A DNA stretch of 64,000 nucleotides from Cytauxzoon felis. Its lineage: Eukaryota; Apicomplexa; Aconoidasida; Piroplasmida; Theileriidae. Below the pieces are notes generated by a model, which was not told the DNA's origin, ran no database searches, and saw only the letters and a program-made list of their open reading frames with translations. Position 1 is the stretch's first letter. Each line of letters opens with the position of its first letter. This document shows, piece after piece, positions 17,401 to 50,860 of this stretch. The translations under genes were made by a program, and so were the position numbers. Where the stretch lies: assembly GCA_020283715.1 (NCBI GenBank), contig JAIQCW010000156.1, positions 106,853 through 170,852 of the forward strand, read 5' to 3'.

Positions 17401-20400
17401 CGTACGAGTGTTGTAAAGTAAATACCAAAGATTTCAGCCTTTTCTTCAATTAAATAATTTACATTTTGTAAATTAACCAATACCACACTAACTAATGAAC
17501 GCTTATAACGTTTACCAAGACTCATTGGTAATCTGTAAATATAATAATGAAATAAGTCCCATCTACATATAATCATAAAATTATATCTTCAATATTCGCC
17601 TCCACCTGAGGTCGTCTTGCAGACAGCTTCCTCTATTTACTTCCCCCTCCGCTTCCCTGAGATCAGCTATGGGTAGTCCACTTGAGGTCCAATCACTAAC
17701 TTCGCCACGATCTCTGGGAGTGGCATCACCCTTCAGGGATATATAATTGGAAGAGGCCTCCACGGCGAGTGGAACAGTGGTTGTAACCTCAGGCGGAGAC
17801 GAGCTCTCTACAAGAGGGACAGATGTGGAATGGACCTCATGCGGAAGATATTCAGGACGTATGAGATGAAAAAATGGTATAACTCAACTATAGTAAAATA
17901 TACCTGCATAATGATTTGGTAATTTCTAAATAGTATGGGTTATATATTTTTTCGGCCAATAATGTTTTGATTATTGTACTTATAACTTCTGGTAGCTAAG
18001 AATTGATTTATAAAATATAAATGATATTAAATTAACCTTTTTCGTCTTGATACCTAATTCTGTTATCCTTTCTACAGCATGAATGGGACTTTGTGCAGCT
18101 GCTATAGCAACAAATGTAGACTTTTGACAATTTGAATGAAGGCTATTAAATTGATATAAAATCAAATTTAATAAATCATACCCTAGTTTTATAGCTCTTT
18201 TCAATAATAAGGGAGTAGAATCTATACTTTTATTATTGTTATCATCAGTTAAAATTAATGAATTTTCATTCATTTTTTCTAGAATTATACTTGCAGATAA
18301 TTTTCCAAGCATAAATTCTTCTCTAAATGATAAGAATTTTTCCCAAATTATACATTGTCTATCAATAGTTTCTGAGGATAATACATTCTCAACCATGTTT
18401 CTATATATTAATAAAAGAAGTTAGAGATGAATTAATAATTAAAAATAGTCTACATACTTAAGAAAATCGAAATTCTCAAGAGATTTCTTAGTCTTTGATA
18501 ATTTAAATGATTCAATTTCTTGTTCAATAAATCTTAAACGACCTACAAATGAATGTATTTTATAGGAAAAATCACCTCAAATAAAACTTACTTTTACTTA
18601 AATCGCCATAGACATCTTTATATTGTACAATTAAACCAGTCAAATAATTCAATACTTCAGTAAATGATTCATTACTATAATCCCTTATTAAATAACCTAA
18701 AATTATATTATCAACCAATATTCGTTGTAGTATCACATCAACATCTTCCGCATGAGGTCCACTCCACCGATCGTTCCACCTCCACCTGAAGTTACATCTT
18801 TATCTTCCACTCGCCGTGGTGGCGTTCTCTATTCACTTCCCCTTCCAGCTCCCGTAGATCGCTTCCAGGTTCCACTTGAGGTCAAATCACAACTTCAACC
18901 TGCGCCACGATCTCCGGGAGTGGCTCTACTCTTTAGAGATATATAAATAGAGAAGGCCACCACGGCGAGTGGAAGATAAGGATGTAACCTCAGGTAGAGT
19001 TCTATTAGATATAATTAGGATGGGTATATAGAGACCTATATATGGACAACTCAATTGGTATTTTCATTTACATGATGTCATTAACATACCATTATGTTTG
19101 AGTAATGTGATTAATAATTGTGCGATATGATCATTGAGTCCATTTTTGGAGATTAATTTCATTATATTAAAAATGAAGTCTACTTGAATCATTTTAAAGT
19201 GTAATAATGCTGAAAATGATAATAGACAGTTCCTATATATGAATTGTATATGAAATATTAAATTTCAATTTACCTTATAATTAGTTTAAAGTCATTTTGA
19301 TCTTCGGTATTATTATTAAGACAATCGAGTCCATCCAACATTAAGTTATAAATTTTAAAAGAAAATATATACCCAACCTGTAAAGTAATGGAGGATTAAT
19401 AAGTTTAAGAACAAACATTAATTCCTATAGAATTAGATAAGATTGTAATTAATGCAGTTTGTATTGTTACTAAAGAAACTACAGAATTCAAATCTTTTAT
19501 GCTCATCTCAATTATACTATCAGATAAATCACATAATAAATCATCAACTTTAGATTTAACTTTATTCTCATCAACACCATCCTATAGGATAAATTATTAA
19601 ATTACTAATAAAACAATACAATTTTCAATAAATCTTTATAAAAATTAATCATTTCACGTGAAATTATAGGAAAATTCCCTTCTGATAAACGATTTGCATA
19701 ACCAATTTGAACTCTTTTTAATGACTCATATAATTCTTTTTGTAATACTAAATTACAATTATTGAAGATTAATCAAGTTTACAACATACAAACCTTTATT
19801 TCTTTTCTTCTTTTGTACATTTTCTTCATCATTTGGTAGGGAAAATCGTACCTTCTTTTTCTTATAAACATTTATGTTGTTTTCAGATGATTCTGTATCT
19901 TCATCATCCCCATTGCATGGAGCTTCTCCACCTGAGGTCGTCTTGCAGACAGCTTCTCTATTTAGTTTCCCCTTCGCTTCCCTGAGATCAGCTGCGGGTA
20001 GTCCACTTGAGGTCCAATCACTAACTTCGCCACGATCTCTGGGAGTGGCATCACCCTTCAGGGATATATAATTGGAAGAGCTGACGGCAGGACTAACCTC
20101 AGGTGGAGAACTGTCTGCAGAATATTTATTTGATGAAGAATATCCATTAAAAGAATCGAAGTCATCATCTTTCAAAATAGTACTTTTGTCATCGATATTG
20201 GTAATATTAGATAAAAAGTCTAAAAAATCTTCGTCGAAACCATCATTCAAAAATTCTGATCGCAATTCTTGAAATAAATCGACCTTTCCAGGTTTAACAC
20301 CTTTACCTTTTCTACCCTTCAATAGTTGACGTTCTAAATATTCAATCTCTAGATCATCTACAGATTTATCTGTTTTATATTTATCTACTGTACTTCCTTC

Positions 20401-20667: not shown

Positions 20668-21403
20668 ATTCACGAACCAATGATTTTATATAAAATAAGA
20701 TTAATTATTATAACATCTACAGATAGAACACATGTTGATAAATATTAAATAAAACTACATTTAATTTTTAATAACTATAAATATATTTATCGTGTAATTA
20801 TGTGATGTAATTAAGACGTAAATAAATTAAATATTAAAAATAATAGGTTACAACCTTATTAATAATCTAGACAGTTGATATTCAAAAAAATTCCAAATTA
20901 AATCATATGATAACATGAATCAACTATTATAAAATGGAACAATAGTGATACAAAAGGAGACCCATTAGATTTAATAATGTTTCATATATTGAAATAACTA
21001 TTTGTAGTTAATTATAATTTCGATGTGTTTCATATCCCCAATATAGCTTTAATGTCTAATATTACTATCCCCATGGAATCTTTAATTATGTATGTAATAG
21101 GAAGAATGGTAAAAAATCAATATCACATGAATGTATATTAATATATGAAGACAATAAATTTATTGTAATAATACAAATGTGTTTATATTATTATAAATTT
21201 GTACTTGGTGTTTACACATTTAGTGGGAAAGTGGTAAACAATATTAGATTCCTTAATAAATTTTAATACAGCCATTTTATAGAATAAATGTCGTGTTATT
21301 AATCGATTAATTATAACACATTTATATTTTTTTAACGTCTATGACATTATTTATCGACTGAGATGTGGGTAATGTCGTAATTTTTATTACATTGGCTTTA
21401 AAT
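20668..21403. other. Divergent intergenic region
   Basis: These 736 bp lie between the divergent NOM1-like and PREX genes. The sequence is very AT-rich with short simple repeats. I see no gene, element or RNA; both promoters are presumably here. Confidence 0.4.
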
Positions 21404-24400
21404 ATGTTAACATTATTGATTGGACATATTAATTATTTCCCAATCATCATTGATCGGCCATCGTTTAATCGCAGGAGATGTTGTATTCTTACATTAATTA
21501 TATTGTATATCATAATTAGCTGTAGAATAAGATTGCGCAGTCATAGTGTTCAATGTATTGAAATAAAGGGGATTGATCCCTCGAAATTTTGTAACAACAT
21601 ATGGAAGAGTACTAGAAAGTTGGTATTGGATGGTGTAAACATGTATAAACCGATCTATAGGAGAAGATTTCCGAGGTATCGCAGTAATAATGTTGCAATT
21701 ACAAACTCTGTAAAGCTGGGAAGTAGGAACTATATTGATACTAGAACAGCCTTAGGCGATTATGGTTTTATTAGTGGTGTTTTGAGTTCCTCTAACTCAT
21801 CTTTGGTGTATAGTAAAGAATTTACAAAAGATGGGCCAATATGTCCACTAAAATATGAAAATGTTAAGAATAATAGCGTATTTGCTTATTCTTCTCATGA
21901 GAATTTGATGAGTTATCCATATGCTGTATCTGGAGATGTATATAATAGTGGTATAGGTACAATGATACCAACGCAACAACAGGGTGTAGTTGTGGGTGGC
22001 GATTATAATACGTTTGTTTCCCATCACTATCGCATAATGACGGATGATATAGTTGATTATTTGCGTAGGAAGAAGATTGAATACATGGAATCTCCTGTGA
22101 AGTTTACGTTAAAGTTTTGTCCATTTTGTCCGCCGCATCGTTTTAAGTCAGATAATCTATACAAACATGAAATATTTAAGAATTCAGGTAACTCATATTG
22201 TCATAGATGTGGTTATAGAGGTAGTTTATTTGATTTTAAGGCGCATATGGGTGATTTACCCAGTGGTTTGATAGATGAAGTGAGTGGTTTACCATATGGT
22301 ACGAATCCTTTTGCCCCTATGAAAATTAGTGATAATGAGCCACAATTGAGTATAGTTAATATATCTCAATATGAAAACAATCTTTATAATGTTGAGGAAT
22401 ATAGAGTTGTATTGGATTATTTGACAAAGACTCGTGGTATATCTATAGAAACATTAAGAAAGTATAGGGTTGGTGCGGGTGAATTTAAATTTAATTGTTC
22501 TGGTTCTGCTTCTGTTGTTGATAAATGTGTTGTGTTTCCATGGTTAATGGCTAAAGATAGTAGTGTAAGTAATTCAGAATTAATAGTTAATAGAGTAAAA
22601 GTTCGTAGTATAACTGAAAAATCAAGAATGAAACTTATACCACGTGGTGGTCGTTGGGGTATGTTTGGTGAGCATTTATTGCCGGATATATTGAATAGTA
22701 AGGATAAATCTATTGTATTATCAGAGGGTGAATTTGATGCTATGAGTATATATCAATCTACTGGTAAAATAGCATTATCATTACCCAATGGTTCAAATTC
22801 TTTACCTATAGCTTTATTACCTAGGCTAGAGAAATTGGATAATATATATTTATGGATGGATTTTGATTCTGCTGGTCAAGGTGGCGTATCACATTTTTCC
22901 AATAAATTGGGTATGCAACGTACAAAAATTGTCAGAGATATAAGTGAAAAATCTAATGATATTAATGGTGAACCGATTTTAGGTCCTAAAGATGCCAATG
23001 AATGTTTATTAAGTGGCAAAGATATAATGAAATATTTAGATAGTTCATCACCATTAAGTCATTCTCAGATATTAAATTTTAATGATATACGTCAATCTGT
23101 ATTGGATGAATTAGCTAATCCTGGTGCAACATCTGGTATAGAGAGTTTAACATTGCCTGGTTTATCTAAACTATTAAAAGGGCATAGAAGAGGTGAATTA
23201 TCTGTATGGACTGGTAGTACTGGTAGTGGAAAGACAACGTTATTATCGCAATTATCTATTGACTATTGTGTACAAGGTGTAAGTACCCTTTGGGGTTCAT
23301 TTGAGATTAATAATGTGCGTTTAGCAAAAACTATGTTACGTCAATTTAGTGGTAAAAATTTAGAGCACAATATCGAGGATTTTAATTATTATGCCGACAA
23401 ATTTAGTGAATTACCATTAAGATTTATGAAGTTCCATGGTTCAACATCTATAGATCAGGTCATAGATGCTATGGATTATGCTGTTTATGTATATGATGTC
23501 CGTCATATTATAATTGATAATTTGCAATTTATGTTAAGTGGTCAGAATAATAAATCAAGTGATTTATGGGATTTACAAAATAGTGCTATAGAAAAGTTTA
23601 GAAGATTTGCTACCAATAAGAATGTACATGTATCATTAGTAGTACATCCACGTAAAGAGGCTGATGGTACATTATTAGGTTTATCAAGTGTATTTGGTTC
23701 TGTTAAATCTACTCAAGAAGCTGATAATGTTTTAATTTTACAGAATGTTGCAGGTGAAAATCGTTGTATTGATGTTAAAAAAAATAGATTTGCTGGTAGA
23801 TTAGGTAGAGTTACATTTGTATTTGATCCTATAAGTTTAACTGCGGAAGAAATAACAGCATCAGAATTCGTTAATGATACCACATTAGTAGAGAATTCTA
23901 AAAAATCCAATAATATTAGAACCCCAATTACTAATACAAATAATATAAGTAGAGGTTCTAGATTAATGTCATCATATAGAGCAAATAGTGCTGAAACAAT
24001 ATCAGGGAATAGGAATGAGATAAATAAAGGAGGTTCCACCATGAATACAAATAATATGCTCCGTATAAATAATTCAAATATAGCTCCTTATTCCACTAAG
24101 CGTTCAACAGATGATCCGATAATAAATTCTTCAAATTTAAATAGCCCTAAAGATAAATCTATTACACAAACTTCATCGCACACAGCAGATATCGTAGAAG
24201 AGAAGGGGGAATTAAATAGAGATGACACTAAGGCGAGTGGAATATCTGGACAGTCACTTGTAGATAACCATAACACCATAGGTCGTCTTGCAGATGGTTT
24301 TCCATCGCATATTACAACACCTGTTTCAAAGACTTCCACCTTAGGTCCTGCCGTCAGCTCTTCCAATTACGTATCCCTAAAGGGTGAAGCCACTCCCGGA

Positions 24401-27400
24401 GATCGTGGCAGGGGTGGAGGTAGTGAGGATGTAACCTCAAGTGGAACTTCATGTAGAGGAGAAGTTGGAGTGGATAGACCTCAGGTTGGTGAAGATGGTA
24501 TTGTTGTGTCCCCTAATGAAACAGTATTGGATCAAAATAATGAATCCCCACATTTAAAAACTTATAGTGTAGATGGGGAAAATTCACCCCATAATTCTGA
24601 TGCTAGTATTAATAAACCTGTGGTTAAACGTTCGGGTAGGCCTAAGAAACAGAAGAAAGTTGATGAAGATACTGGTCCTATTGAACGTATAACTATGCGT
24701 GGTATAACTATAACAAGGAAATCAAGTATAAAAGAATATCGTGATTTTATAAAGAAGAATAGATTGGGTGAGACTATTAAAACGGCAGGTAAAGGTATAT
24801 TAAAGGACGAAATATATAATAAGATTAAAGATAATGTACCGCCGTCATGTATAATAAGGGGTGATTTAGATTTGAAATCATCATCAGATCATCCATTTGG
24901 TTTATCTACAACAAAGCCATTATTAACATTGGTTAATAGAGATGTCAAATTGATTAGAGATTATGATCATTTTTCTAAACGTCAATTGCATAAAATGTCT
25001 ATGTTATTTGACAAACCATTATTACAATTAAATGAACCTAATAGTATTGGTAGTATAAATTTACCAGTATATATGATTGATGATGTTAAATCTGATCCAT
25101 TATTAGCTAATGGTATAATATATATTAAAGATGATATATTATTAAATAAGGTTGAACCATTATTTAATGATATTAATATGTATGCAATTGATATTGAAAC
25201 TACTGGACTTGATTTTAGAAGTGATAATATACGTTTATTACAATTATCTACACCAGATCAACCATCTGTTATTATAGATTTTAAATATTTTAATAAGGAT
25301 ACTTTATTAAATTGTAATTGGTTAAATAGATTATTTGGTAATAAAGATATAACAGCTATATTACATAATGGTAAATTTGATATAAATTTTTTAACGTATT
25401 ATGGTTTTAATATTTCATGTAAATTATTTGATACAATGATTGCAGCAAAATTATTAAGTGGTTTTAGATTTAATATTAGTTGTAAATTAAGTAGTGTAGC
25501 TGAACGTTATTATAATTTAATTATGGATAAGTCACAACAATTCTCAGATTGGTCATTAACACCATTATTTGAAGATCAAATACTTTATGCATCTAGAGAT
25601 TCTAATATATTATTACCATTATATATAATTTTAAAAGAAAAATTAAATAATGAAGAACTTGATACCATAGCTGATATAGAATTTAAATGTTTATTAGCTG
25701 TTTCTGCTATGGAATCCAATGGTATTAAAGTTAATATAGAAAAATTACATCAGTTACAAGATGAACTAAATATAGAACATAATATTGCAGCTAAAAAATT
25801 AGGTGATGCATTAGGAGTAGATAGTATCACTTTCAATTTCAATTCACAAAAATTAGTATTAGCTGCATTACAAAAATTAGGAGTCATGGATAGAACCAAA
25901 AGATCAATCATTTCTGATACATCAGAACAAACACTTTCCAGAAATACCAACCATCCAGCAATCATCGCATTAAGAGAATATAGAAAAACAAATAAAGCAG
26001 TAACCGCATTCACACTCAAAATTCCAAATCATATCAGCAAAGATACAGGTTTGTCTGAATGTAATCTATTATCTATCTTCATTCCGACATTTGCTTCATG
26101 TGAGATCCAACCCACCTCTTTTAGTCCTGCCGTCAGCTCTTCACCTGAGGTCTTTCCACTAGGCGTGGTGCCTCTTCTATTTAGTTATCCCTACGCCTAC
26201 CATATGTCGGCTTCGGGTGTGTCGCCACGATCTCTGGGAGTGGCTCTACTCTTTAGAGATAAGTAAATGGAAGAGGCCTCCACGGCGAGTGGAATGAGAC
26301 GATTTCATGTGGAATGGAGAGTACGAATGTAACCTCAGGTAGAGTTATTGAATGTAAATTTAACTAGATAAATTCTAATATACCTTTTTATTTGTTATAA
26401 ATATTCTAATTAATTATATTTTAATACAGGTCGAATTTATCCTAACTTCAATCAATGTGGCGCAGAGAGTGGTCGATTTAGTTGTGACAATCCAAATTTG
26501 CAGCAGATCCCACGTGATTCAAAGTTTAGGGAATGTTTTGTAGCTGAAGAAGGATATAAATTTGTAATCGCAGATTTTTCACAAATAGAGCTTCGTATAG
26601 CTGCTGATATAGCAGAAGATGTTCGTATGATTGAAGCATATAATAAAGTGAGTTTATTGCAATTTTACATGTAAATATAATCATTTTTCAGGGTACCGAT
26701 TTACATTCTTTAACTGCCAGTATTATCAAGCGTACGTTTAATTGTTCATCTTTAAAATATTTTTTAGAAAAGGATATTAGTGAGGTAACAAAAGAAGAAC
26801 GGCAATTGGCCAAAGCTGTAAATTTTGGTCTCATTTTCGGAATGTCACTTTCAGGATTTAGGATATATGCAGAAACCGGATACAATACCAAATTATCATT
26901 AAATGAAGCCAAGGAGGTATATCTTTCATTCTTTAAAAACTTTAAAGGTATTACACAATGGCATAATCGCATGAAAGTAAGTTTATTTAAGATCAATGTT
27001 AAACCTTTATCCTTTATATAATTTTGAAATGATTGTTATTATACCAATTTATTATTATAGGAGGAGAGACCCACAAAAGTGAGAACATTAAGTGGTAGAT
27101 TATCTATATTTGACTCGTTTTCATTTACGAGATCATTGAATTATCCAGTTCAGGTGAGTTATCGGGTTATTTGTTGTAAAATTAATCTAGGGTACATCTG
27201 CTGATATAACAAAAGAAACAATGGCTAACTTGGTAGATAGGGTAAAACCGATTAACGGTAGAATAATAATGTGTATACACGATGAAATTATACTAGAAGT
27301 ACCAGAAAAACATGCAAAAGAGGTAATTTGATTAAATTACATGAATAAATGTAATAGGGTTTGGATATATTAATTAATACAATGCAAGAAGCCGGTAAAA

Positions 27401-28975: not shown

Positions 28976-30687
28976 ATGTCGAAAGTATTTGATCATAAGA
29001 CAGTTGATGTATCTAGTGATGATGAAGACGATGAAAGGATGACATTGGAAACAAAATTTGATCGTCTTGTAAGTAGGCATAGGAAATTTACACGTCAATT
29101 CGATAAAAATATGGAAATGTGTTGTGGTCGTCTAAGTAACCTGATGCATCGAAACATAAATAATCTAACTATAAAGGTACTTAATAGTGTATTTAATATA
29201 AATTTATCTGCATCGAATCTAAAGAATATGGAAAGCAAATATGATGACTGTTCATTATGTCCAAATGTAAAGCATGCTCCTGTGGCTAATAGGAGTGATT
29301 TAAATAAAATCACCATAGATTTAAACGATTCTAGAAACATGGATGTTCTCAGCACACCTCTAAATTATATTAAATCACAAGTTTTCATACTATCGCCGAA
29401 TATATTATCACCTAATAATTTATTAGGTGCCAATGCAGGAAATGATGATGGAAGTTCAAGTTCTACAGAGTCTGATGATGATAATACTACTACTAATAAT
29501 AATAATATAAAGAACAAAAATGATAGTGCAGATGGTAAGTATTGTAATACTATTGTTATTATCAATTTAATACAGATTACTTCGTATTTTTTGTAAATAA
29601 AAATAACAATCCTCTCAATAAACTAGAGGTAATAATAACTGCGTACAAATGGCTAAGAAATAAATCAAATACAATCGTACCATCATTAAAAACATATTTC
29701 GTTAGCCTTGGTATCACAATATTTCAATGGATTATATTCATTATTTCAATCACATTATACAATACTCCAGAAACTCCAACCAAAGGTTAGATACACTAAC
29801 TATCTGTAGGCTAAAATTTTCACATATGTCTGGTACCTCTATTCAACCATCTTTGAAGACTTCTTCCAATTACCTATCTCTAAAGAGTAGAGCCACTCCC
29901 GGAGATCGTGGCGGTGAGGAAGGTATGTATTGGACCTCAAGTGGAAGTGGACTACCCGCAGCTGATCTCAGGGAAGCGAAGGGGGAGGTAAATAGAAGAA
30001 GTCTTTAAGGATTAAAAATAGAGGATTTGAAGCGAACTATATGTTCTTCTATTTTAATAAAATAATACAAAACCTTCAGGTGTTGATGATAGGATATTTG
30101 GTGTATTTAGTGGTTCATTATTGAGAGATAAATTATCGTTACATAGAATAGTGAGCTCGGCTTTTTTTCACAATTCATTGGGTCATTTGATTATAAGCAC
30201 AATGATGCATTTTAGATTTAGTTCTGTATTTGAATCAGTACATGGTGTAGTATTAACCTTACTGATGTATTTCATATGTTCCGCATATGGCATGATTGGT
30301 GTATCATGGTGTATACCTGATGTATTACAGGCTAATGGCATGGCTGGTGACTGGGGTATAGCAGGAGCATTATTGAGCAGGTTATTTGTATTCCCCTACT
30401 TGTTTAGTAGGGAATATCAGCATATAACAAACTTATTTGTCAGTTATATGTGTTTATTTTTTCTTAAAACTATCGGAAAAGGAAGTGAAATTGTTGTATC
30501 AACACATTTATTAAGTGCAATATGTGGGTTTTGTATTGGTACATTAATTAATACAAGATTAAGGGGTGACAATAGTTGTAGTCTAAATAACATTGTTATA
30601 GATTTTTTATGTTCGTTTATATTATTGGCTGTACCAATATCATCAATATTTTTATTATTTATCGCTAACAATACATATATTAAATGA
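28976..30687 (+). CDS. Rhomboid-like membrane protein, probably catalytically inactive
   Basis: Three exons, 28976-29534, 29576-29785 and 30080-30687, give 458 residues. A polar N-terminal cytosolic region (about 200 residues, Asn/Asp-rich end) is followed by a membrane segment (FVSLGITIFQWIIFIISITL) and a rhomboid core: SSAFFHNSLGHLI, then ANGMAGDWGIAGALLS, then STHLLSAICGFCIG. The rhomboid GxSG motif appears as GMAG, so the catalytic Ser seems replaced by Ala. The second catalytic His (STH) is kept. Active rhomboids cleave adhesins in apicomplexans; this one more likely binds without cleaving. Intron 2 carries a modular repeat. Confidence 0.7.
29848..30012 (+). repeat. Modular repeat element, rhomboid-like gene intron 2
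   Basis: It is sense to the host, with both cores intact and open ([33 protein letters not shown]). Its ends differ from the family norm: CTTTGAAGACTTCTTC and GAAGAAGTCTTTAAGG form a different imperfect inverted repeat of about 14 bp. This suggests terminal modules can be exchanged. Confidence 0.85.
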
Positions 30688-34220: not shown

Positions 34221-35301
<1,081 letters not shown>

Positions 35302-35846: not shown

Positions 35847-37432
35847 TTATAATAATATTTCATCATGTATAAAAGTATATGATTTTATTGTATTTGATGA
35901 TGGTGAAAATATAAACCTTAATGCTAATGATTGAAATACACTGTTACCCCAAAAATTTGAATAATTCAAATTTACATAAATATTCTGATCCTTACTAAAA
36001 AATACACCAAATTTTATATCATCTGTAACCTTATTCTCAACAACTAATTCGCATTTCCTTAAAAAAACATGTTATTATGTCTTGAATAAAAACATACTTT
36101 GTCATTGGATATATTATTGGAGTTATTGCGAAATCCTTATTCCTGAATATCAAACTAGCTTTGCCATCAAATTTATTAAATTTATCAATCACCAATTCCA
36201 TTTTTGGAACAACATCAATATTTTTGCCATAAATCTCAAACAAATTTTCAAGATTTTGTACCAATTCTAATGTTTTTTTCTCTAGATAATTGTATTGGTC
36301 GTACAGATGTAAATACATACCATCATTTGTATTATATGATGTTCCCATCAATAAATTGCGATAACGAAATATAAAATCCAATCTCTTCACAAAATCCAAC
36401 GTATCCAACCTAAAAGATTTCAAGCCAGTATTGAAACCTATAAAATAATTTATCATTAATTTAATTAAGGAAATCTGAAAATTAACACAATTCTCTTGCA
36501 GACAGTTATTCACCTGATGTTACAACCTTACTTCCCTCCTGCAGAGAGCTCTTCTATTTAGTTGTCCCTCCGCTTCCCTGAGATCAGCTACGGGTTCTCC
36601 ACTTCCACTTGAGGTCCAATCACTACACTTCTGCCACGATCTCCGGGAGTGGCTCTACTCTTTAGAGATAGGTAAATAGAAAAGGCCACCACGGCAAGTG
36701 GAAAGAAGAGTTGGATTGGACCTCAGGTGGAAAAGCTCCATGCAATGGAAGATGAAAAAGTATGTGATAATACATATCAATGGGTACAAGTTCGTTTATT
36801 TCACTAAACTACGTTGTAATTATACCTTCTAATGTGACGTTGATGGTTTTAGGTATATCTAGTAGCAAACTTGATGATAGAGATGAGTGATATCCGAGTT
36901 TGATCTAAGTGTGTATGTATAAAAGAAATTAATAAAACACACAGTATATTCTAATGATAATTCATTATATTTAGAAAATTGATAAAGTAAATCTTTATCT
37001 TCAAGTTTTGAAGTAATATTATTAGGTTTTTGTACTAAATTATCATTATATACATTATCTTTATGATCATCTGATTGTCTAATTACACAATCTACTACAA
37101 AGTTATCAAAATCACATTTTTTCCTAATCTAAAAGTATATTATTGTCATGATATAATGATTTTACATCTTCAACATACATCAAATTTGTGTAATGTATTA
37201 TATGGCAGTGAGGATACGGAATCCAGTACACTCTTGAATTGATTATTAGTTTTCTGAAATACATTTTGAATATTTGCTTTATTAGTATTAACATTCTATA
37301 TAAATTGATGTTAAATGAGTTAAAATTATTATCGGATAGAAAGTATGATGTAATTTAAGGAAGAAAACATACCTTTGTATTCATACCATTAATAAATGGT
37401 ATAGATAACAATAAATATATATACAACAACAT
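35847..37432 (-). CDS. Signal-peptide-bearing protein of unknown function
   Basis: Six minus-strand exons, 37373-37432, 37179-37295, 36943-37128, 36826-36904, 36098-36437 and 35847-36057, give 330 residues with all phases matching. The first 16 residues (MLLYIYLLLSIPFING) are a classical signal peptide, so the protein enters the ER or, with a transit peptide, the apicoplast. The body is polar and Asn/Lys-rich. The C-terminal 110 residues alternate hydrophobic and polar residues (YVNLNYSNFWGNSVF), suggesting beta structure. A chloroplast-like outer-membrane beta-barrel was considered, but no family is certain. Intron 4 carries a modular repeat. Confidence 0.6.
36511..36740 (-). repeat. Modular repeat element in intron 4 of secreted unknown
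   Basis: It is sense to the minus-strand host. It has CACCTGATGTTACAACC, both cores, the CCACTTGAGGTCCAATCACTA spacer, a GCCACCACGGCAAGTGG module and a closing GGATTGGACCTCAGGTGG. Confidence 0.88.
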
Positions 37433-37703: not shown

Positions 37704-40397
37704 TCATTCAATTAAATTAATATAGGTTTTTACATTATCACTTATAGATACTTTATTATTCTCTTCTAGATTCATTAATTTTTCTAATAATTTTAATGTT
37801 ACTTTATATGTCTTATCCGATTTTACATCAATGTCCATACACTCGACATCATCCATACTCATGCCCAAACTTCCAATATAGCCCTCAAATTTTTTAACGT
37901 TCTTATCATTCATTAATAATATTGACGTTCCATCATTCATACCCCTGTAATTATCAGTAATCATAAATTGAAAGTAGTAATCACTCCACTCGAGGTCCAA
38001 TCCAACTCTTATTCCACTCAGCATGGAGCCTCTCCACCTGAGGTCTTCCACTAGCCGTGGTGGCCTTCTTATTTAGTTATCCCTCCGCTTCCCTGAGATC
38101 AGCTGCGGGTTCCACTTGAGGTCCAATCACTATACTCCCGCCACGATCTCTGGGAGTGGCTATACTCTTTAGAGATAGGTAATTAGAAGAGCTGACGGCA
38201 GGACTGACCTCAGGTGGAGAGGCTCCACGCCTAGTGGAAAGACAGGTAGAACGGCGAGTAGTAATGAATAACTGTAATTATGTCTGTATGACATGGTAGT
38301 ACATGATCTCCTCGATGCGTTTATTGTACTTGTAATATAATTACCTTGCGGTTCTTCCTATACGATGTATATAAGTTGATAATTTATTTGGAAAGTTATA
38401 ATTGATGACTAGTTTGGTATTTAATAAATTTAGACCTCTAGATACTAAATCGGTACATATTAAGCATGATTTTGGTTTATTTCTATATTGAATTGATGAA
38501 TTATAAATAAAAATGATAATGTACTAACATATATTTTTTTATTATAATATTCCTTTCACTTTGGGAATAATTTGAATTAAATTCGTAAAAATTAAAATCA
38601 TAATCACTAAAAAAAATAAGATGAGTTGAAGAATAATAAGAATCAACAAACGATTTATAAAAATAAATTTCTAATATGCGATACAATTCATGAGATATTA
38701 ATCTTCTATTACAGAAAATTAATATATTCCCTATAATATAATGATTAAATATAATAATAAATATACCATTATTTTTAATATTAAAGAATTTTTTAATTAA
38801 TTCGATTAATATTGGAATTTTATAACGTTTAGATGTTAAAATATATTTTTGTTTAAGATTAACAGGTAATTTATATATTAATTCTATATATTATAAAGTA
38901 TAATATAAATTTAAATAATAAATTATACCTTGTTTAACTAATATTGGTCTATTTAATTTTAATAATTCAAATTCTGATGATTTATTTGGTACAGTTGCTG
39001 ATATTACTGAAAATTAATTATAATAAATAAAAAAAATATATAATCAACAAACATATTTTTTGTGTTGAATTGTTATTAATTTGTGTTAATAAATTAATCC
39101 AATTATAATAAGATTGTTTTAATAGTATATCAACTTCATCAATAACAATCCATTTTATAGTATTAAAATTAATAGATTTATTATTATCAAATGAATCTAT
39201 AAGAATTAAATATATAACCCGATAGAGATCTACAAGAACTTGAAAGATAACTAAATAGAGAATCCACATCTAATGGAGATATTATAGATCCACATGAAGT
39301 TACAGCCTCTATTCCCACTAGGCATGGAGCCTCTCCACCCGAGGTTAGTCCTGCCGTCAGCTCTCCACCTGAGGTTACAACCACTGTTCCACTCGCCGTG
39401 GAGGCTTCTTCATTTAGTCATCTCTAAAGAGTATAGCCACTCCCAGAGATCGTGGCGATGAGGAGGTAGTGATTGGACCTCAAGTGGAATACCCGTAGCT
39501 GATCTCAGGGAAGCGGAGGGGGAACTAAATAGAGAAGGCCACCACGGCAGTGGAAGAAGAGTTGGATTGGACCTCAGGTAAAGAGGATGTAAATTCTGAC
39601 AAATCCTCACGTAACTGCTTTATAATTACAAAGGTAATTTTGTATGTGTTTTTAACTTACAATTAAAATGATTGATGAATCTATTTGGTGTTGAAATTAG
39701 TATTTGTGGTTTATTATTTAATATATCGTTATGATCTTTATTGAATGATTTATTACCATAACAATATATTGCCTGATTATGTATTATTTATAAATAGTGT
39801 CATGAAACTAACGTTCAATGTATAACCACCTTTAATGTTATATACTAATGGATCGTCATTAATGAACCATGAACAAGTATCGTAGATTTGATTGATTAAT
39901 TCTCTACCGGGTGCGATTATTAGACATGATAATACATTTACTATAAGTAATAATAAGATTAGATATATAATTTCTAATTAGCTAACATACATTTATTATG
40001 TACAATATTATTAATTATTGGTAATAGATAACATAGAGTCTTCCCTTGACCTAATTGAACATATAGAGGAAGAGATTAAATTCATTACCAGTTGGTGATG
40101 TAATTATATAATCTGATAATGTAATTGAATATTGATCAAGAATTTTATTATTATTTAATATTAATGGTATAATACTCTCTTGTACTATTAATAATGATAA
40201 GATTAATTAATTAATATTAATATACCAGGATATAATTTATTTATACCTTTATTCTTTATTATTAATCTTATATATTCATTTATATTCCATTCTTTTAACA
40301 AATCATCACTACTCTTATTACTATTTATATCATTATATACATATAATCTATATGACCATAGTGGATTAACTCTTGTTATATTACTTTCAACATTCAT
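37704..40397 (-). CDS. DEAD-box RNA helicase (Dbp6/DDX51-like)
   Basis: Eleven minus-strand exons: 40226-40397, 40089-40184, 39991-40050, 39813-39940, 39661-39772, 39196-39053, 38929-39006, 38767-38883, 38529-38730, 38345-38482, 37704-37944. They give 495 residues. Helicase motifs in order: I SPTGQGKT (formed across a splice), Ia APGRELINQ, STPNRF, II VIDEVD (Val instead of Ala in DEAD), III SAT, IV ILIFCNRR, V TDLVSRGLNL, VI YIHRIGRTAR. Dbp6/DDX51 acts in 60S ribosome assembly; the subfamily assignment is tentative. Introns 5 and 10 carry modular repeats, the latter splitting the Arg of motif VI. Confidence 0.88.
37986..38262 (-). repeat. Modular repeat element, helicase intron 10
   Basis: It is sense to the host. 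Several modules are doubled (CCACTCGAGGTCCAATCC, CACTCAGCATGGAGCC, CCACCTGAGGTCTTCCACTA, GCCGTGGTGGCC) around both cores. It closes with AGCTGACGGCAGG, ACCTCAGGTGG and GGCTCCACGCCTAGTGG. The doubled modules suggest nested insertion. Confidence 0.88.
39224..39590 (+). repeat. Modular repeat element, helicase intron 5
   Basis: It is antisense to the host. The complete copy runs from about 39315 (GGCATGGAGCC, CCACCCGAGG, CTGCCGTCAGCTC, CCACTCGCCGTGGAGGC, both cores) to a GATTGGACCTCAGG end near 39577. It is preceded by a diverged piece at 39224-39260 (AACTAAATAGAG). Confidence 0.85.
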
Positions 40398-40701: not shown

Positions 40702-43700
40702 ATGGAGGATAAGAATTTGAATAATGTAGAAGTGATGGCTAAGAATCCATTCATGAATCCATTTGTATCAAATGTTGATGATAATAAATCATCTAATACG
40801 GTTATAAAAAATGAAATTAATATACCAAATAGTTTACAATCAAGTCCAACAATTGATAAATCTGTACCAAATGTAATATCGGATAATAATATACAGTTGA
40901 ATTATTTAGATTTAGGTCCATATAGTGATGATGGTAAAAAATATATTAATAGAGAATTAGAAAAACAAATATTTACATATGGTCCATATATTCCCAGTAA
41001 AATAGAACATTCACAAATTCCAAGACCATTATTACCATTATCAAAATTATCATCCCATAATATAGTATATGAAACATGTAATATAATTGGTAATATTCCT
41101 ACATTTGGTAATTATAAAGTTATAGATAATGGTTATTGTAATCCTATATATATAACACCAACATTAAATGAAGTACCTATATTTGGTGATAGTTTAAAGA
41201 ATATAAAATTACCATTCGGTCTAATTATACAACCATTCGCCGAAAATGTTGATTATAATATACCTTTAATAGATTCCAAATCAACATCAGATAATGATAT
41301 TGAGATAATTAGATGCTCAAAATGTGGAGCTTATTATAATTTTGGTATGTTAAATAAAAATAGAATTGATTTAATAATTTGTAATTTATGTGATTCAAAT
41401 ATAACTGTAACAACACAACAGTTGAATTTATTATATAAAATTAAAGAAGATATGGTAGATGATGCATCTAAACTACCCTCAATATTAAAAGGTAGTATAG
41501 ATTATGTAGCGCCATTACATTATTATTATAAAAAAAATACAAATGATATTAATGCAAGATTAAATATAAGGAAAAGTATTAATGGATTAATTGAAAATGT
41601 AACTGGGATCGCCAATAAATTAAAATCTATACGTAAAAGCAAAGTAATTTATGATAGTTATGGTAGTAGTACACATGATAATGATGATGATATCAATAGA
41701 CAATTTAATCTATTAGAAATAACTGATTCTAAGGAACCATTGAATGAAAATCTTAAAAATATACCAGCATATGTATTCATTATCGAATCTACTGCACCTG
41801 CAAATAATATACGTTAGTTAAATCGAAAAAAAAATTTATCATATATATCCATTTTTAGGCCTAAAAAATTGTGTTATAAGTGCAATTAGACAAGCTGTAA
41901 ATGATTGTAAAAATAATAGGATAAAGTTTTGTGTAATCACATATGATTGTATCGTCTATTTATATCCAGTCGTCAATAATAATGTAAATGTCCACATGGT
42001 CACTGATATAGATGAAATGTTCACACCCTCAAGTTTCAAAGATATATTTATTGAAGTCAGTAATGATGATTTCAAATTAAAATCTACGGAATCCGCACAA
42101 TCTGAAGTTAACTCTACCGAGAGTTATACAAACACTGCTACACCTGAGGTTATAAACTTGTCTTCCACTAGGAGTGATGCCTCTCCACTTGAGGTCCAAT
42201 CCACTTCCTTACCACTCGCCGTGGAGGCCTCTTCCAATTACCTATCTCTAAAAAGTAAAGCCACTCCCGGAGATCGTGGCGATGATGATGTTAGTGATTG
42301 GACCTCAAGTGCAAGTGGACTACCCGCAGCTGATCTCAGGGAAGCGGAGGGGGAAGTAAATAGAGAGGCCACCACGGCGAGTGGAATGGAGAGTCGGATT
42401 GTAACCTCAGGTGGAACTCCTAGTGTAAGAGGAAAGACATCGGATAGAGGATCTTCTAATAAAATTGATGTTGATAAATATTTGGATAGGATATTATCGG
42501 CGCCACCAGTCCTTATAGGTTCTCAGAATTGTTCTACTACAGCATTGGGTATGGCAATACGTATATTGAGTGATGCAGGTGTATGTGGTACAATAAAATT
42601 ATTTTGTACTGGTACACCTGATGTAGGTTATGGTAAAATAAATAATTTAAATGTTAAAGATTCATTTACATTAGATGATGATCAAAAGTTATATTATGAT
42701 TCATTAATACAATTATGTTATGATAATGGTATATCTGTTGATATATATTTATGCCCTATATGTGATATAATACCAGGTTATTTATCCATACAATATATAA
42801 CACAACAAACATGTGGTCAATGTTATAATTTTCCATATTTTGATTGTAATACAGATTATATAAAAATATATAAAGATATATTAAGATTATTTACAGTAGA
42901 ATGTGGTTATAATTGTGAATTGAGAATAAGATGCTCTAAAAATGTTTATATTAATGAAATATTATGTCCATTTAATAATTCTAGAGCAATATTAAGTAAT
43001 TATATATTGAAATTACCAAAATTAAGTCCAGATACTTCAATAGCATTCATATTAGGATTAAATGATCTTATTGATGATAGAAATGATATTTTTATACAAA
43101 CTGCATGTATGTATAATCATTCATTTACAGGTTATAAACTTATTAGAGTACATACAGCTATTATTAAATCTACAACATCAATAAATCAAATTTTCAAAAG
43201 TGCAAATAGTGATGCATTAATTAATATTTATTCTAGATTATTAGCATATAAATTCATTAAAACCGGAACATTTGATAAAAAATATATACTCGGTAATATT
43301 GTAGAAACACTCTCATCATATAGACATATTTGCGCACCATCTACACCAAATAATCAACTAATATTACCAGATAATCTCAAATTATTACCCGCATCCATCA
43401 ATTCACTCTTCAAATATGATGTAAGTTTTAACCCGATAAATATTTCAACTCTCCACCGAGGTTACAGTCTTGTCTTTCCACTCGCCATTCCACTTTAGGT
43501 CCTGCCGTCAGCTCTTCTATTTACCTATCTCTAAAGAGTATAGCCACTCCCAGAGATCGTGGGAATGAAGAGTAGTACTGGACCTCAAGTGGAACCTGGA
43601 AGCGATCTACGGGAGCTGGAAGGGGAAGTAAATAGAAGAGCTGTCTGCAAGACAACCTTAGGTGGAACGCCTAGTGGAATGGAAGGTGGAAGTGGAGTTA

Positions 43701-44377
43701 AGACTTTAACTTCAGTCGTAATGTCTAGTTGACAGGACATTGGTTCTATCCGCATATCTATGGGATAGCCTTTTGAAATAATACTTTTATATTTAAATTA
43801 ACATTTCTTTTTTTAGATTACTGTTGAACATGGTTATATATTTATTCAAAAGTTATTGAGGACTTTATTAGCTCCGGTTAAGGAAACTGCTTATACATAT
43901 GTAAGAACTTATTGTGTTTATCGTGCATTGTATGATGAAAATGTTAATGTGCCCGACAATGGTTGGAAGTTCAATCCTGTGTTGGTACCATCATCATGTT
44001 CATATATATATAGTGATGGTATGTATATAATGGATGATGGTACCGTACTTGTACTCTATTTTGGACCGCATGTTAAATGGGGTCTATTACAAGAGTTATT
44101 TGGTGAAGATTTAAAATTAACAGAAAGGAACTTTAATAAATTATTATTAACTGATACACCAACCAGTAATAACTTAAATAGCGTAATTGAAAGAATTAGG
44201 GATATACATGTTGGTACACAATATCTACCACTAAAAATTATACCATATACCGCCAAAAATTCAAGAACAATCAAAACGCTACTATTAGAAGATGAAATCT
44301 TAGATGAACCAACATACGTTAACTTTTTAGTTAAATTACATAAACTAATTAAACAAACATGTGATAATCTTATCTAA
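40702..44377 (+). CDS. SEC24: COPII coat protein Sec24
   Basis: Three exons, 40702-41812, 41859-43420 and 43817-44377, give 1077 residues. The order is typical: a disordered Asn-rich N-terminus, IPRPLLP-type linker, LPFGLIIQPFAE, the zinc finger RCSKCGAYYNF / ICNLC at about 203-227, the trunk (YVFIIEST), a beta/helical region and the gelsolin-like C-terminus. Sec24 selects cargo for ER exit vesicles with Sec23. Residues about 465-556, inside the trunk region between VNSTESYT and TSDRGSS, are an in-frame modular repeat. Intron 2 (396 bp) carries another copy. Confidence 0.92.
42141..42414 (+). repeat. Modular repeat translated in frame inside Sec24 exon 2
   Basis: It is bounded by CACCTGAGGTTATAA and TTGTAACCTCAGGTGG, 274 bp with no stop in the Sec24 frame. 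It encodes [55 protein letters not shown] and VTSGG. It is the longest exonic copy and contains three tail modules. Confidence 0.93.
43451..43690 (+). repeat. Modular repeat element, Sec24 intron 2
   Basis: It is sense to the host. It combines the CTATCTCTAAAGAGTATAGCC core, the variant DLRELEGEVNR core, GAGCTGTCTGCAAGAC and an ACCTTAGGTGG end. Unlike the exonic copy, its coding frame has a stop (GAAGAGTAG after DRG). Confidence 0.88.
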
Positions 44378-44475
44378 AATATCTTAACATATATATTACC
44401 CAACTACCCCACAATGCGTGATTAAGTAAGATCAATTAAATTCCCGTAGCGGTCGTGATGAGTAGTAATTCTATT

Positions 44476-44591
44476 GTATCCAGCTCTTCTATTTATCTAT
44501 TTCTAAATGGTAGAGTCAGTTCTGGAGATCGCGTATTATACAGAACAATTTACGGAACACCGGGGGAAATAATTAAAATAGTTGAATGCAA
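44476..44591 (+). repeat. Degenerate modular repeat
   Basis: Recognisable parts are CCAGCTCTTCTATTTATCTA, TTCTAAATGGTAGAGTCAG, TTCTGGAGATCGCG and ACACCGGGGGAAATAATTAA. It is the most diverged copy and lies 5' of a Tpr-like gene. Confidence 0.6.
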
Positions 44592-45000
44592 TAGAGAGAT
44601 ACATACATAATAAAGGTTACATTGCTAGTATAATACGTATTTTGAAATTGTAATTATGTTACCCTAATTTTTATCTTATATATAATTATCATGCTATTCT
44701 CTATCAATGTGGGGCGATTTTTCAGACACTATTAATTTTTCCTGTAAAATATACATTTACCATGTATTTATATTAAAATGACTGGAAATAATATTTAATT
44801 TGGTAACAACATTTATAATATAAAGCAAAATAATGCTAATTATATTTATCAACGTTATCACTAAGTATCAGTTTAATTATAATAAATATATTATCACATA
44901 AAATTAAGTAACAATATTTTAACAACAGTATTCACTTGTAATCAGTTCGTTAAACATATTATAGTAATTTTAGTTACAATTATGTCAATAATTTTAAATA

Positions 45001-45027
45001 ACGGGGGAGAGGGATAATTGGAATAAA
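45001..45027 (+). promoter_or_regulatory. Conserved G-rich upstream motif of Tpr-like genes
   Basis: ACGGGGGAGAGGGATAATTG followed by GAATAAA ends 28 bp before the ATG at 45056. It matches the motif at 16971-16998 and, more loosely, the one at 55927-55948. In a region this AT-rich such a G-run is conspicuous. Confidence 0.65.
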
Positions 45028-45055
45028 GAAAAAATGGAACCAACCATATGTTAAA

Positions 45056-46945: not shown

Positions 46946-48583
46946 ATGAGTGTACATCTGGCCGGTAAGATTGCTAGGAACGCTTGCTGTAGGAGTGCGG
47001 AGGTATGTCTATATGAGTGTACCAAGCGTTTCATGAAATCATTACCTGTACCATCGGATTATGAGCCTTTAGGTTTGTATTGTTATGAATAATGATATTT
47101 ATTGTAAATTTTTATATTTATAGCATCAATTTTTTATTATTCTGGTATACATAACCATAGGGAATTTCAATTATTGGTAGATATATCCGACATTGAGAGT
47201 GATTTTTTAAAGAAGAAAGTATGCATAGAATTGGAAAGTGGTTCGACAACTTCAACAGCTACTAGTGAGTTTATTGTTTGATGATGGATTTATATTTTAT
47301 AAAATCTTCTACCTTAGGTATACCAATATCATCAACTGGTACTGTAACTAATATCGGTAGTAGAGCCTCTATAAGGATAAAGCAATGCGATTCTAATTTG
47401 AAGATTACAGTATATAGAAAACATGTCTTAACAAAAACTGTTTTGGCTCAGTTAACATTTAATATAGTAAAGGATATATTAGATTTGGATTTCCCTAAGA
47501 AAAAATGGTATTGTTTATAAAACTCTATATTAACTCCTTTATTCTTAGGTATACCTTAATGAATAACTATGGTATAGTAGGAAGAATGAAAATCTCATTC
47601 TATAAAAGTGTGTTTGATATTTTAATACATTATAAATCTTTAGTCGATACAATACAAAATATCGCCGACTCTCTCGTCTTACAACAGGCTCTACTCTGTG
47701 CCAATGAATATATCGCCTCCGGAATCGATATCAAATTAGATGTATGTCCTACAATATCTAGTCTTAGACACTACATGCATTCTTCCACATGAAGTTACTT
47801 CTACCAATAATACAATCCAACTCGCCTCCACCGTTGGTCCTGCCGTCAGCTCTTCTATTTACCTCCCCCTCCGCTTTCCTGAGATCAGCTACGGGTAGTC
47901 CACTTGAGGTCCAATCACTATACATCTGCCACGATCTCTGGGAGTGGCTTTACTCTTTAGAGATAGGTAATTGGAAGAGCCTCCACGGCGAGTGGAAGAA
48001 GTGTTGGATTGGACCTCGAGTAGAGAACTGACGGCATATGGAAGAACGTTTCACATAGATTATATTTATATTATGTATATTTATATAGGTGATTAATCAT
48101 GATATAATGCTTGAGGCTGAGAAATTAATGTTATTTTCATATGCGATAGAGGGACCGTTGATAACGAAAAATAATAATGCATCTCAAATGAGATATGTAA
48201 AATCGGTGCAACATCGTGGTAAATTTAATTGAATAAAGATATTTTAATATTTAGGATCATGGTATTGGCGTTTTTGGAATTCTAAAATTGAATGTAGAGA
48301 TAATTTAAAACCTGAACTATCTATACCTATATTGAGTATAAGCACGGTTCTTAAACATCCTACAGATTATTCATTATTTTATATTAAGTATTATTCAAAG
48401 ACTGGTTCACATGACTTGATTTTAAAGACTGTAGATAGAAATAGAGATATATGGACAGATGCATTATTTTTATTTATTGAAATTGTATGTTTAACATAAT
48501 AATAAGCATAAATAATAAATTAGGTGCGGAGATATCTTGAACATTTTGACAATTTCGATGCATTACAGGAGTACAAAATATAA
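46946..48583 (+). CDS. Protein with C2-like and PH-like regions, unknown role
   Basis: Seven exons: 46946-47072, 47124-47264, 47318-47507, 47549-47741, 48089-48218, 48255-48484, 48524-48583. They give 356 residues with all phases consistent. The N-terminal part contains beta-rich segments reminiscent of a C2 fold ([30 protein letters not shown]). The C-terminal 130 residues resemble a PH-like domain: [46 protein letters not shown]. Such proteins usually bind membranes through lipids. Both assignments are by pattern only and need a profile search. Intron 4 (347 bp) carries a modular repeat. Confidence 0.6.
47783..48040 (-). repeat. Modular repeat element, intron 4 of C2/PH-like gene
   Basis: It is antisense to the host. 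It has CCACATGAAGTTACTTCTAC, CTGCCGTCAGCTCTT, both cores, the CCACTTGAGGTCCAATCACTA spacer, CCTCCACGGCGAGTGG and GGATTGGACCTCGAGTAG. Confidence 0.88.
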
Positions 48584-48810: not shown

Positions 48811-50860
48811 ATGGAAACATCACGTAAATCTTTAAGGAATAATAAAACTGTTAAGTTTGGTTTAGTATCAGTATCGAATTCTGATAAATCAGGTACGAAT
48901 GAAACACGTTGTCGTACATTGATGCGCAAAATATCGCAAAATAATATATGGAAGGTAATTATTATTAATTGATTGAATTATTAAATGTATAGAATCGTAA
49001 AATAGAAGAGGTGCCAAAAGAATTATTAAATGTGCTTGAGCCTAATGATTTTGGTATACATTCTAATTTGAGTGAATCTCAGAGGGTATGTTTTATTAAT
49101 TTTAATAATAATATTTTTATTTTTATAGTCTCATTTAATAAATACAATTTATGGTAGTGATGAAAATTATAGAAATTATGCAAAGGATCGTGATAATGCG
49201 GTATGTACATGAGATTTATGTAAAGAATTCATTATAACTACAGGATGAAAATATAAGATTAACAGAGGAAGATTTAGATGGTGATTGTTATTTTCCAAAG
49301 GATGGATATGATTACGAGCAGCATTTAGCCGTCATTAATCCGAAGAACTTTATACCAATTGATAATAGTGTCGACGTTGAAGATTGTAAGTCCACCATAT
49401 TTCTAATATAATTTATTTATCATTTATATAGTTGAAATTGATGATCATAAACATTTCCCTGGATTACCAAATGATGGAACAATTACTGGAAAAATTGATG
49501 ACCATTCTCACACCCTGGATGTAGATGCTAAGTGTAAGTTGCTTAGTATTTTAATTTAACTTTATTAGATGATGATTTATTTGATGATGGTGATGATGTT
49601 GAGTTGTTAGATGATGATTTCGTAATTCAAGCCTCAAATGAAGAATTACCAACTGTAGATGAAAATACTTTATTATGGGGAAATTACAAACCAATTATAC
49701 CATACACATATAATGTACAACAATTTGACATTGATGATACATCCAAGAATGGACCAATAGAAACAGATCCACCATTCTCACTTGATTATAACCTAGGTCA
49801 TACATCTACATATCCTCCTGAACATAATCTTGCAAAGAGCCCTTCTCTACCTGAGGTTAGTCCTGCCGTCAGTTCTTCCAATTACCTTCCCGTAAACGGT
49901 ATAGCCACTCCCAGAGATCGTGGCGAAAGTGAGGGTGGTGATGCAAGTAGAGCTAAGGATGTAACATCAGGTGGAATACCCGCAGCTGATCTCAGGGAAG
50001 CGGAGGGGGAAGTAAATAGAAGAGCTGACGGCAGGAATGTAACCTCAGGTGGAAAGGAAATGGACAATTTAATATCTGACAGGATATATGATGTAGATTC
50101 TTCTGTAAAAACCTTAGATGTAACTTCTACAATATTTGAGGATGTTAAATTAAAGTATGGTGAAAATTATTATAGAAAGGATCAAATGGTATTTGAACCA
50201 GTGATATCTAAACAATCTAAGGAGATATTGAATCCAACTGGTGATGTATATGTAGATTTAGATCAACCAGTTACTGATGAATCGTATGAAGAAGATGAGG
50301 AATTAAGTGATTATGAATCAGATAAATGGTATTTATTGAGATTATTTCGTTTGATTAAATAATTAATTATATAGGGATGTAGAAACTGTATTAACTACTT
50401 ATACTAATAATACTAATCATCCTAGGGTAATAGTATTGGATAAAATTAAAAGTACACTTAAAAAGAGGTAATTTTTATATGTTTTAAACTTTTATATAAT
50501 TTATTTATAGTAACCATTCCACTAGAAATCGTAATATGGATGGAATTGATATCATTCAATTACCAGAGGTTTGAATTTTTCTTATACTTTTTATATATAG
50601 AATACATCAATCTATAGGTTATAACAGAAAGGAGGAAGGATGAGACTATAGAAGAGAAGAAGGCAAGAAAGGCATCAGTAAAAAATGCCAAGGCTATGAT
50701 TCTACAATTAAAGAGAGATAATAAAGATGCTTTAAAGGTTAATTGTAGTATGTTACTTTATCTTTATTTAATATTATAGGCTGCTAAAAAGAAAAATACA
50801 TTACAAAATTCTAGGGGTAATTATGATGTTACTGATGGAGTTCGTTATTTAAAATTATAA
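48811..50860 (+). CDS. LTV1: Ribosome biogenesis factor LTV1
   Basis: Ten exons: 48811-48954, 48993-49085, 49129-49200, 49244-49385, 49432-49533, 49569-50328, 50375-50467, 50511-50568, 50618-50737, 50780-50860. They give 554 residues. LTV1 features: an early [20 protein letters not shown] block, acidic [10 protein letters not shown], the [13 protein letters not shown] segment, [18 protein letters not shown], and a basic coiled end ([20 protein letters not shown]). LTV1 helps assemble and export pre-40S particles. An in-frame modular repeat occupies residues about 278-347, between the acidic region and the [11 protein letters not shown] segment. Confidence 0.88.
49848..50056 (+). repeat. Modular repeat translated in frame inside LTV1 exon 6
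   Basis: It runs from TACCTGAGGTTAGTCCTGCC to GTAACCTCAGGTGG, 209 bp with no stop in the LTV1 frame. It encodes [50 protein letters not shown] and VTSGG. The two cores are joined by an extra GATGTAACATCAGGTGGA in place of the usual WTSSG spacer. Confidence 0.93.

Follow-up and report, generated by a model that had tools for sequence, protein, structure and literature searches.

A dispersed GC-rich hairpin mosaic in the nuclear genome of Cytauxzoon felis and its copies in protein-coding exons

The stretch analysed here (the window) comprises 64,000 nucleotides of Cytauxzoon felis contig JAIQCW010000156.1 (positions 106,853 to 170,852) and carries many copies of a hairpin element rich in guanine and cytosine (GC), some of them within exons of unrelated genes. 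Judged from the sequence, this element is very probably a dispersed, non-autonomous mosaic of the nuclear genome, whose copies would land roughly at random and whose exonic copies would survive in a single open frame and be translated together with the host protein. It was recognized through four copies in genes named NOM1-like, PREX, Sec24 and LTV1 by the initial annotation, which held that all of them share orientation and reading frame and contain no stop. This was borne out when the copies were read and translated: each lies at its given place, and one frame of its coding strand is open and contains the motifs SSNY(I/V/L) and ATP(G/R)DRG. The motif AADLREA(K/E)G, previously ascribed to three of the four, was recovered by translation in three; the exception is the PREX copy, which has the diverged TADIVEEKGELNR instead, on the other side of its core.

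Copies were collected with nhmmer, using the four first copies and then their relatives as queries. The sample analysed in detail consisted of the window and 18 further stretches (L001-L018) of contigs C94 and C4, amounting to 244 kb of the 8.62 Mb genome. It contained 88 copies with a total length of 23,795 nt (9.8% of the sequence; mean copy size 270 bp), corresponding to approximately one copy per 2.8 kb. Twenty-six of these copies are located in the window, two of them being the halves of one element of a second type. The GC content is 47.8% within the elements and 29.0% outside. Extrapolation from the 88 copies in 244 kb yields about 3,100 copies in the whole genome. An exact search of the complete genome with the 20-mer core GCCACTCCCRGAGATCGTGG returned 1,143 and 1,208 occurrences on the two strands (2,351 together), as opposed to none for the reversed core, which served as a control. 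The same 20-mer had no exact match in the viral contigs searched and a single one in the prokaryote contigs searched, located in a metagenome-assembled genome of Gemmatimonadetes. In the window, Rfam detected no family at gathering scores and ARAGORN no tRNA, and no title or abstract describing the element was found in the openly licensed literature. A published C. felis 18S primer and the RLB-F2 primer both lacked a match in the genome with one mismatch allowed, and the assembly may contain no rRNA; its apicomplexan character shows in PREX, genome size and base composition. Matches between the flanks of different copies (40 of 45 listed) comprised overlapping flanks of neighbouring copies, centres of the second type and a small remainder of short or repeat matches, so that the copies look singly dispersed rather than segmentally duplicated. 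The contigs that bear them measure 170,852 and 122,558 bases, and the neighbouring genes are of nuclear type and contain introns; the dispersed element is nuclear and not located in mitochondrial DNA.

The modules of the element were given letters coined in this analysis, with the orientation set by the core. Full copies form imperfect inverted repeats with the module order A-(B, C or T)-D-E-F-spacer-a-(H or I)-J-(b or c)-a, in which B, C and T are alternative small hairpins, E is a covarying hairpin and F the near-invariant core, followed by a variable spacer and the mirror half; many copies contain extra arm units. The end modules A (TCCACCTGAGGT) and a (ACCTCAGGTGGA) constitute shared terminal inverted repeats. 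Among the 64 copies with a core, and with at most two mismatches, A was present at the left end in 52, a at the right end in 48 and both in 43. The arms pair in the predicted folds, with z-scores of -6.93 for the LTV1-region copy, -6.59 for the Sec24 copy and -3.77 for the NOM1-like copy. The second element type has the same arms and another, nearly symmetric centre with an ATCTCG..CGAGAT-like hairpin.

Covariation in the E and F hairpins was analysed in 62 of the 64 core copies, after one had been dropped at a stretch boundary and another for lack of the E region. Twenty-nine cells, all of them in E, were changed on both sides, compared with 7.4 in shuffles. The covariation score was 0.173 compared with 0.076 in shuffles (0 of 500 as high). 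Paired cells made up 97.7%, as opposed to 92.5% in the shuffled sets and 35-54% with a slid partner. A genome-wide search for the E pattern, with the outer and inner pairs fixed and the two middle pairs free, identified 2,097 places; the first 100, which overlap with copies of contig C4 already in the sample, comprised 75 CTCT/AGAG, 17 CCGT/ACGG, 2 CCCT/AGGG and 6 other forms. Since the translated peptide changes along with the hairpin form (LSLKS, LSLKG and LPVNG correspond to three forms of E), it is the pairing that appears to be kept rather than the peptide. For the long inverted-repeat stem, no selection is claimed: of 46 copies, 9 had like hairpin alleles in the left and right arms, 7.9 being expected (p = 0.40), and the test for covariation between the arms was thus negative. 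Of the 15 pairs formed by six module markers, 14 lacked an association (p > 0.05; 43 to 62 copies per pair). The copies form no clear linked subfamilies, and their cassettes reassort with little linkage, the simplest cause of which would be recombination or gene conversion between copies. Two copies have a rearranged module order, C94:78590-78823 (H-d-b before C-D-F) and C94:90713-90932 (f-e-d-c-a fused to B-D-E-F), which suggests recombination within or between elements.

Exonic copies were defined by a flank test, in which a codon score was calculated for 150 nt on each side while the element itself was ignored, and both flanks were required to score above 4 and to be free of stops. Eleven of the 88 elements (12.5%), situated in 11 open reading frames (ORFs), passed this test. 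All 11 lie in sense orientation (called by the core in nine and by the modules in two), keep the frame of the host and are open inside, and none has flanks in different frames. The two exonic copies without a core use the same frame as the rest, one of them reading SDLRELEGEVNK. The remaining 77 copies, intronic and intergenic ones pooled, are non-exonic by this test. The ATP frame is open in all 9 flank-defined core copies, as opposed to 12 of the 58 remaining copies with a core (Fisher p = 7e-6). Two further copies, C94:89348 (RIO1) and C94:119881 (NOM1-like), were classed as exonic from the open frame instead of the flank test; with them, the counts became 11 of 11 and 10 of 56 (p = 3e-7), a comparison that is partly circular. 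None of the 11 core-bearing copies classed as exonic is free of stops in any of the other frames. All 10 measurable exonic copies, 8 of them flank-defined, have a distance between the core and the GATCT of module H/I that is divisible by three (60 to 117 nt), whereas 45 other copies are distributed over the three phases as 22, 12 and 11 (Fisher p = 0.003). One candidate, C4:10658, passed a looser flank threshold and failed the stricter one; because a stop interrupts its flank and the element itself contains six, it was rejected as a false positive.

The proportion of exonic copies agrees with random landing. Among 6,000 random points, 2,100 had both flanks coding in one frame. From random insertion, exonic survivors are predicted to make up 8.2% of copies if one frame in six is permitted and 15.2% if two are, and the observed 12.5% does not differ significantly from the lower value (binomial p = 0.11). 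Targeting to linkers need not be assumed. A protein search with the LTV1-region insert as query gave 3,671 candidates genome-wide. Of the best 150, which are biased towards open copies and include the query and some pairs in the same frame, 84 were situated in open frames 250 codons or longer; the match was stop-free in 83 of these, and 27 reached 1,000 codons. Extrapolated from 11 in 244 kb of two contigs, about 390 copies would be exonic in the whole genome.

Of the four gene names, PREX was supported by Pfam and by matches in the PDB, and Sec24 was supported as well, whereas LTV1 and NOM1 obtained no support from either Pfam, also after their ORFs had been joined, or the PDB. In PREX, residues 388-827 match the Twinkle helicase and residues 1237-1578 the plastid replication-repair enzyme, with the insert at residues 938-1044 of the same open frame. 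The view that inserts fall into linkers between folded domains is in keeping with this arrangement and fails for Sec24, where the insert (residues 102-211) breaks the Sec23/24 trunk region itself. There, residues 234-532 match Sec24A and residues 30-71 give a weak upstream match (1.7 bits), and the two matched parts are separated by 162 residues, compared with 30 in the Sec24A chain; a search of a large protein database retrieved no Sec24 homologues. The RIO1 gene (L009:7682-9847) contains two inserts, at residues 352-402 and 555-681, between the kinase domain and the conserved C-terminal end. Its residues 95-322 match the kinase part and residues 658-721 the C-terminal end of the RIO1 PDB chain; the latter match overlaps the end of the second insert, and the conserved RKNKIPKH lies beyond it. 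In the eight exonic ORFs outside the window, Pfam found a domain in three (LCCL, Noc2 and RIO1). Some exonic copies on C94 lie in ribosome-biogenesis-type proteins (RIO1 and Noc2, as well as NOM1 and LTV1 if these names hold), the sample being small. Homology on both sides, the flank test, the openness of the frame and the in-phase modules together support the earlier proposal that exonic copies are translated in frame.

We propose that copies land roughly at random. Outside exons, either orientation would be tolerated and copies would drift. Within exons, survival would require sense orientation, the one open frame and a length that keeps the frame, and all others would be purged. A surviving exonic copy would then be transcribed and translated as an insert of approximately 50 to 185 residues, while cassettes would be exchanged between copies by recombination or gene conversion.

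Several results speak against this scheme or limit the evidence for it. Two of the five covariation measures did not rise above shuffles: three pairs were changed on both sides, compared with 2.0 in shuffles (68 of 500 as high), and there were 7 further pair types, compared with 7.1. One pair of module markers was associated (p = 0.047), and short-range linkage exists between D and E, as TTCAC stands ahead of E in 5 of the 8 copies with a CCGT hairpin and in none of the 54 with another form. The PREX copy has a fold z-score of -0.70 and hence no extra folding energy. The codon score was trained on ORFs of at least 300 codons from the same 244 kb, with the elements masked. The 22 of 45 other copies with an in-phase GATCT exceed one third (p = 0.02), so that this class may hold unrecognized exons. 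In 44 long non-exonic copies, the protein frame contains 2.8 stops on average, close to the 3.1 and 3.5 of two antisense frames, and with margins this small stop density alone singles out one frame poorly. Traces of the insertion process were likewise scarce. No target-site duplication was evident by eye in the flanks of the 88 copies, which were not scanned systematically, and no empty site was found, the one paralogous gene pair looked at providing nothing usable. The integrase domain rve had no match in the genome; a search for the mariner-type Transposase_1 also gave none, although its controls were silent too. Two RVT_1 matches on C56 were considered as a reverse transcriptase for the element and rejected, as they adjoin a telomerase RNA-binding domain within one open frame of 1,010 codons and belong to telomerase.

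A possible extension, which we put forward tentatively and consider rather doubtful, is that the element has become adapted to coding sequence. Exonic copies would join the breeding pool, and coding and non-coding copies would trade cassettes by recombination, so that the low-stop frame would be kept.

Among the competing explanations, the best is that the element serves the host, for instance as a signal for transcript ends, replication or chromatin; the exonic copies would then be by-products. Its high density, near-invariant F core and covarying hairpin would suit such a role; the occurrence of copies between, at the ends of and inside ORFs, on both strands, makes it unlikely. Slightly less likely still is that the exonic copies are unrecognized introns, comparable to introner-like elements, which are removed by splicing. 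The element does have ends similar to splice sites (CCTGAG|GT and ACCTCAG|G), and a location in an intron of Sec24 was seen for at least one copy. The splice sites of this intron, a single case read by eye, lie outside the element, whereas an introner would supply them itself. An intron would moreover need neither an open frame nor a length divisible by three, yet all 11 flank-defined copies are in frame and open. The 36 introns inferred from coding scores have a median length of 55.5 nt; the inference was limited to AT-rich, element-free introns of 32-110 nt and is therefore blind to introns made of the element. We regard it as very unlikely that the unit is an ancient coding repeat or protein domain of which the non-coding copies are scattered remains. 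In its favour, the protein frame is the poorest in stops even in the 44 long non-exonic copies (3.1-6.3 in the other five frames; 5.26 expected from the base composition), but 77 of the 88 copies are not flank-defined exonic and conservation follows the pairing of the hairpin and not the peptide. Finally, retention of the copies in the mRNA and their bypass by ribosomes, as reported for GC clusters in Magnusiomyces mitochondria in the available part of PMC8811140, is suggested by the strong predicted hairpins within coding sequence but is highly improbable, as it would demand neither the open frame nor the in-phase modules that were observed.

A dispersed element that very probably survives in exons by remaining open has two close parallels. 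Rickettsia palindromic elements, to which the initial annotation had likened the copies, form in-frame fusions in unrelated protein genes, each encoding an ORF, with 44 integrations in R. conorii (PMC10969869, as far as its available text goes). The parallel applies to the way of working, as both are palindromic, form hairpins and lie in frame inside unrelated protein genes (here 11 of 11 copies, in 11 ORFs). It does not extend to membership of that family: Rickettsia elements are bacterial, whereas the present host has PREX and introns, the estimated copy number is about 3,100, the copies are mosaics of reassorting cassettes, and the single prokaryote match of the core is in Gemmatimonadetes. 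The comparison was made by description only. Yeast mitochondrial GC clusters are equally close. They are described in the accessible text of PMC8811140 as mostly intergenic, with some in frame in var1, and as linked to recombination and gene conversion. Both are GC-rich palindromic clusters in AT-rich DNA, but the yeast clusters are mitochondrial, whereas the C. felis element is nuclear, averages 270 bp and occupies an estimated several hundred exons. As the compartment or organism does not fit and no sequence relation was demonstrated, the element was assigned to neither group.

More distant counterparts are the palindromic repeats of Volvox and the hairpin elements of sponge mitochondria, which are likewise proliferating hairpins of selfish appearance; according to the available sections of PMC2670323 and PMC2800124, they are organellar and found mainly in non-coding DNA, the nuclear copies in Volvox being judged inert transfers. 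With miniature inverted-repeat transposable elements (MITEs) and foldback elements, the C. felis element shares inverted repeats, common ends, high copy number and the lack of its own coding capacity. Inspection of the flanks by eye revealed no target-site duplication, and the transposase families searched (rve, and Transposase_1 with its silent controls) gave no match; free reassortment of internal cassettes is not expected under simple descent from master copies. For a retroelement driven in the manner of short and long interspersed nuclear elements (SINEs and LINEs), no reverse transcriptase other than telomerase was found, to which the RVT_1 matches of the genome belong. A survey of transposable elements in 64 apicomplexan genomes reported, in its available text, none in C. 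felis, T. parva, T. annulata or T. orientalis, listed LINE-like elements for T. equi and for some Babesia, and discarded every MITE candidate; that text describes nothing resembling the hairpin mosaic (PMC9141347).

Selfish hairpin DNA that survives within proteins is already known from Rickettsia and yeast mitochondria. A nuclear case, accounting for roughly 10% of a compact genome and, by estimate, for a few hundred insertions in frame, would make it possible to measure the tolerance of proteins to translated inserts, and to study spread without an identified enzyme and the reassortment of modules across thousands of dispersed copies. Repeat surveys of Apicomplexa could have missed a major kind of element. 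If the adaptation considered above were real, several hundred unrelated proteins would contain inserts undergoing concerted evolution as selfish nucleic acid; hairpin pairing would shape these inserts, and the only constraint on them would be to remain open.

Table 1. Copies of the hairpin element and their parts. Positions refer to the window unless a contig is given.
Feature	Position	Strand	Remarks
Exonic element, NOM1-like ORF 19759-20685(-)	19881..20147	-	modules A-C-D-E-F-a-H-J-c-a; exonic by open frame (538 nt upstream, 119 nt downstream), not by flank test
E hairpin, NOM1-like copy	20054..20063	-	CCCT-GA-AGGG class
F core, NOM1-like copy	20029..20049	-	GCCACTCCCAGAGATCGTGGC, read ATPRDRG
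Exonic element, PREX	24177..24494	+	between helicase and exonuclease-polymerase parts; diverged, without H/I module after core
F core, PREX copy	24389..24409	+	read ATPGDRG
Exonic element, Sec24 trunk region	42129..42455	+	Sec24A homology on both sides, weak upstream; fold z -6.59
F core, Sec24 copy	42260..42280	+	read ATPGDRG
Exonic element, LTV1-region exon (name from initial annotation)	49777..50071	+	long inverted repeat; fold z -6.93
E hairpin, LTV1-region copy	49890..49899	+	CCGT-AA-ACGG class
F core, LTV1-region copy	49904..49924	+	read ATPRDRG
Inferred exon with LTV1-region element	49569..50328	+	between inferred introns 49534-49568 and 50329-50374 (coding scores)
Intronic copy, Sec24	43441..43712	+	inside intron 43421-43816 (~396 nt, mostly element); ends GTAAGT and TTTTTTTAG outside element; read by eye
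Second element type	4922..5425	.	two half matches, 4922-5067 and 5192-5425
Second element type	C4:35283-35796, C4:46474-46985, C4:61982-62493		
Antisense copy between two ORFs of COPA/B-like gene	3642..3919	-	
Copy, non-exonic by flank test	6078..6353	+	
Partial copy, non-exonic by flank test	7174..7278	-	
Partial copy, non-exonic by flank test	14766..14972	-	
Partial copy, non-exonic by flank test	17040..17226	+	
Copy, non-exonic by flank test	17566..17876	-	
Copy, non-exonic by flank test	18726..19043	-	
Antisense copy over 3' end of PREX open frame	26086..26355	-	
Copy, non-exonic by flank test	29819..30010	+	
Copy, non-exonic by flank test	31895..32147	-	frame open at ORF end (309 nt upstream, 32 downstream)
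Copy, non-exonic by flank test	36488..36805	-	
Copy, non-exonic by flank test	37976..38290	-	
Copy, non-exonic by flank test	39289..39589	+	
Short fragment	44480..44533	+	
Copy, non-exonic by flank test	47771..48050	-	
Partial copy, non-exonic by flank test	54354..54481	-	
Copy, non-exonic by flank test	58042..58365	-	
Antisense copy over end of first peptidase M1 ORF	61691..61974	-	
Copy, non-exonic by flank test	63400..63614	+	

Two antisense copies extend over the 3' end of an open frame, 26086-26355 over that of PREX and 61691-61974 over that of peptidase M1; the domains continue downstream or are incomplete there, and both copies probably sit at exon-intron borders. The flank downstream of C4:7732-7998 (in L011) matches the flank upstream of the copy at 17040-17226 (73% over 158 nt), and the two may possibly belong to another dispersed repeat or to a gene family. 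In addition, the window contains two inverted related gene copies (16414-17006 and 44993-45587), which are 75% identical over approximately 600 nt and have no relation to the element.

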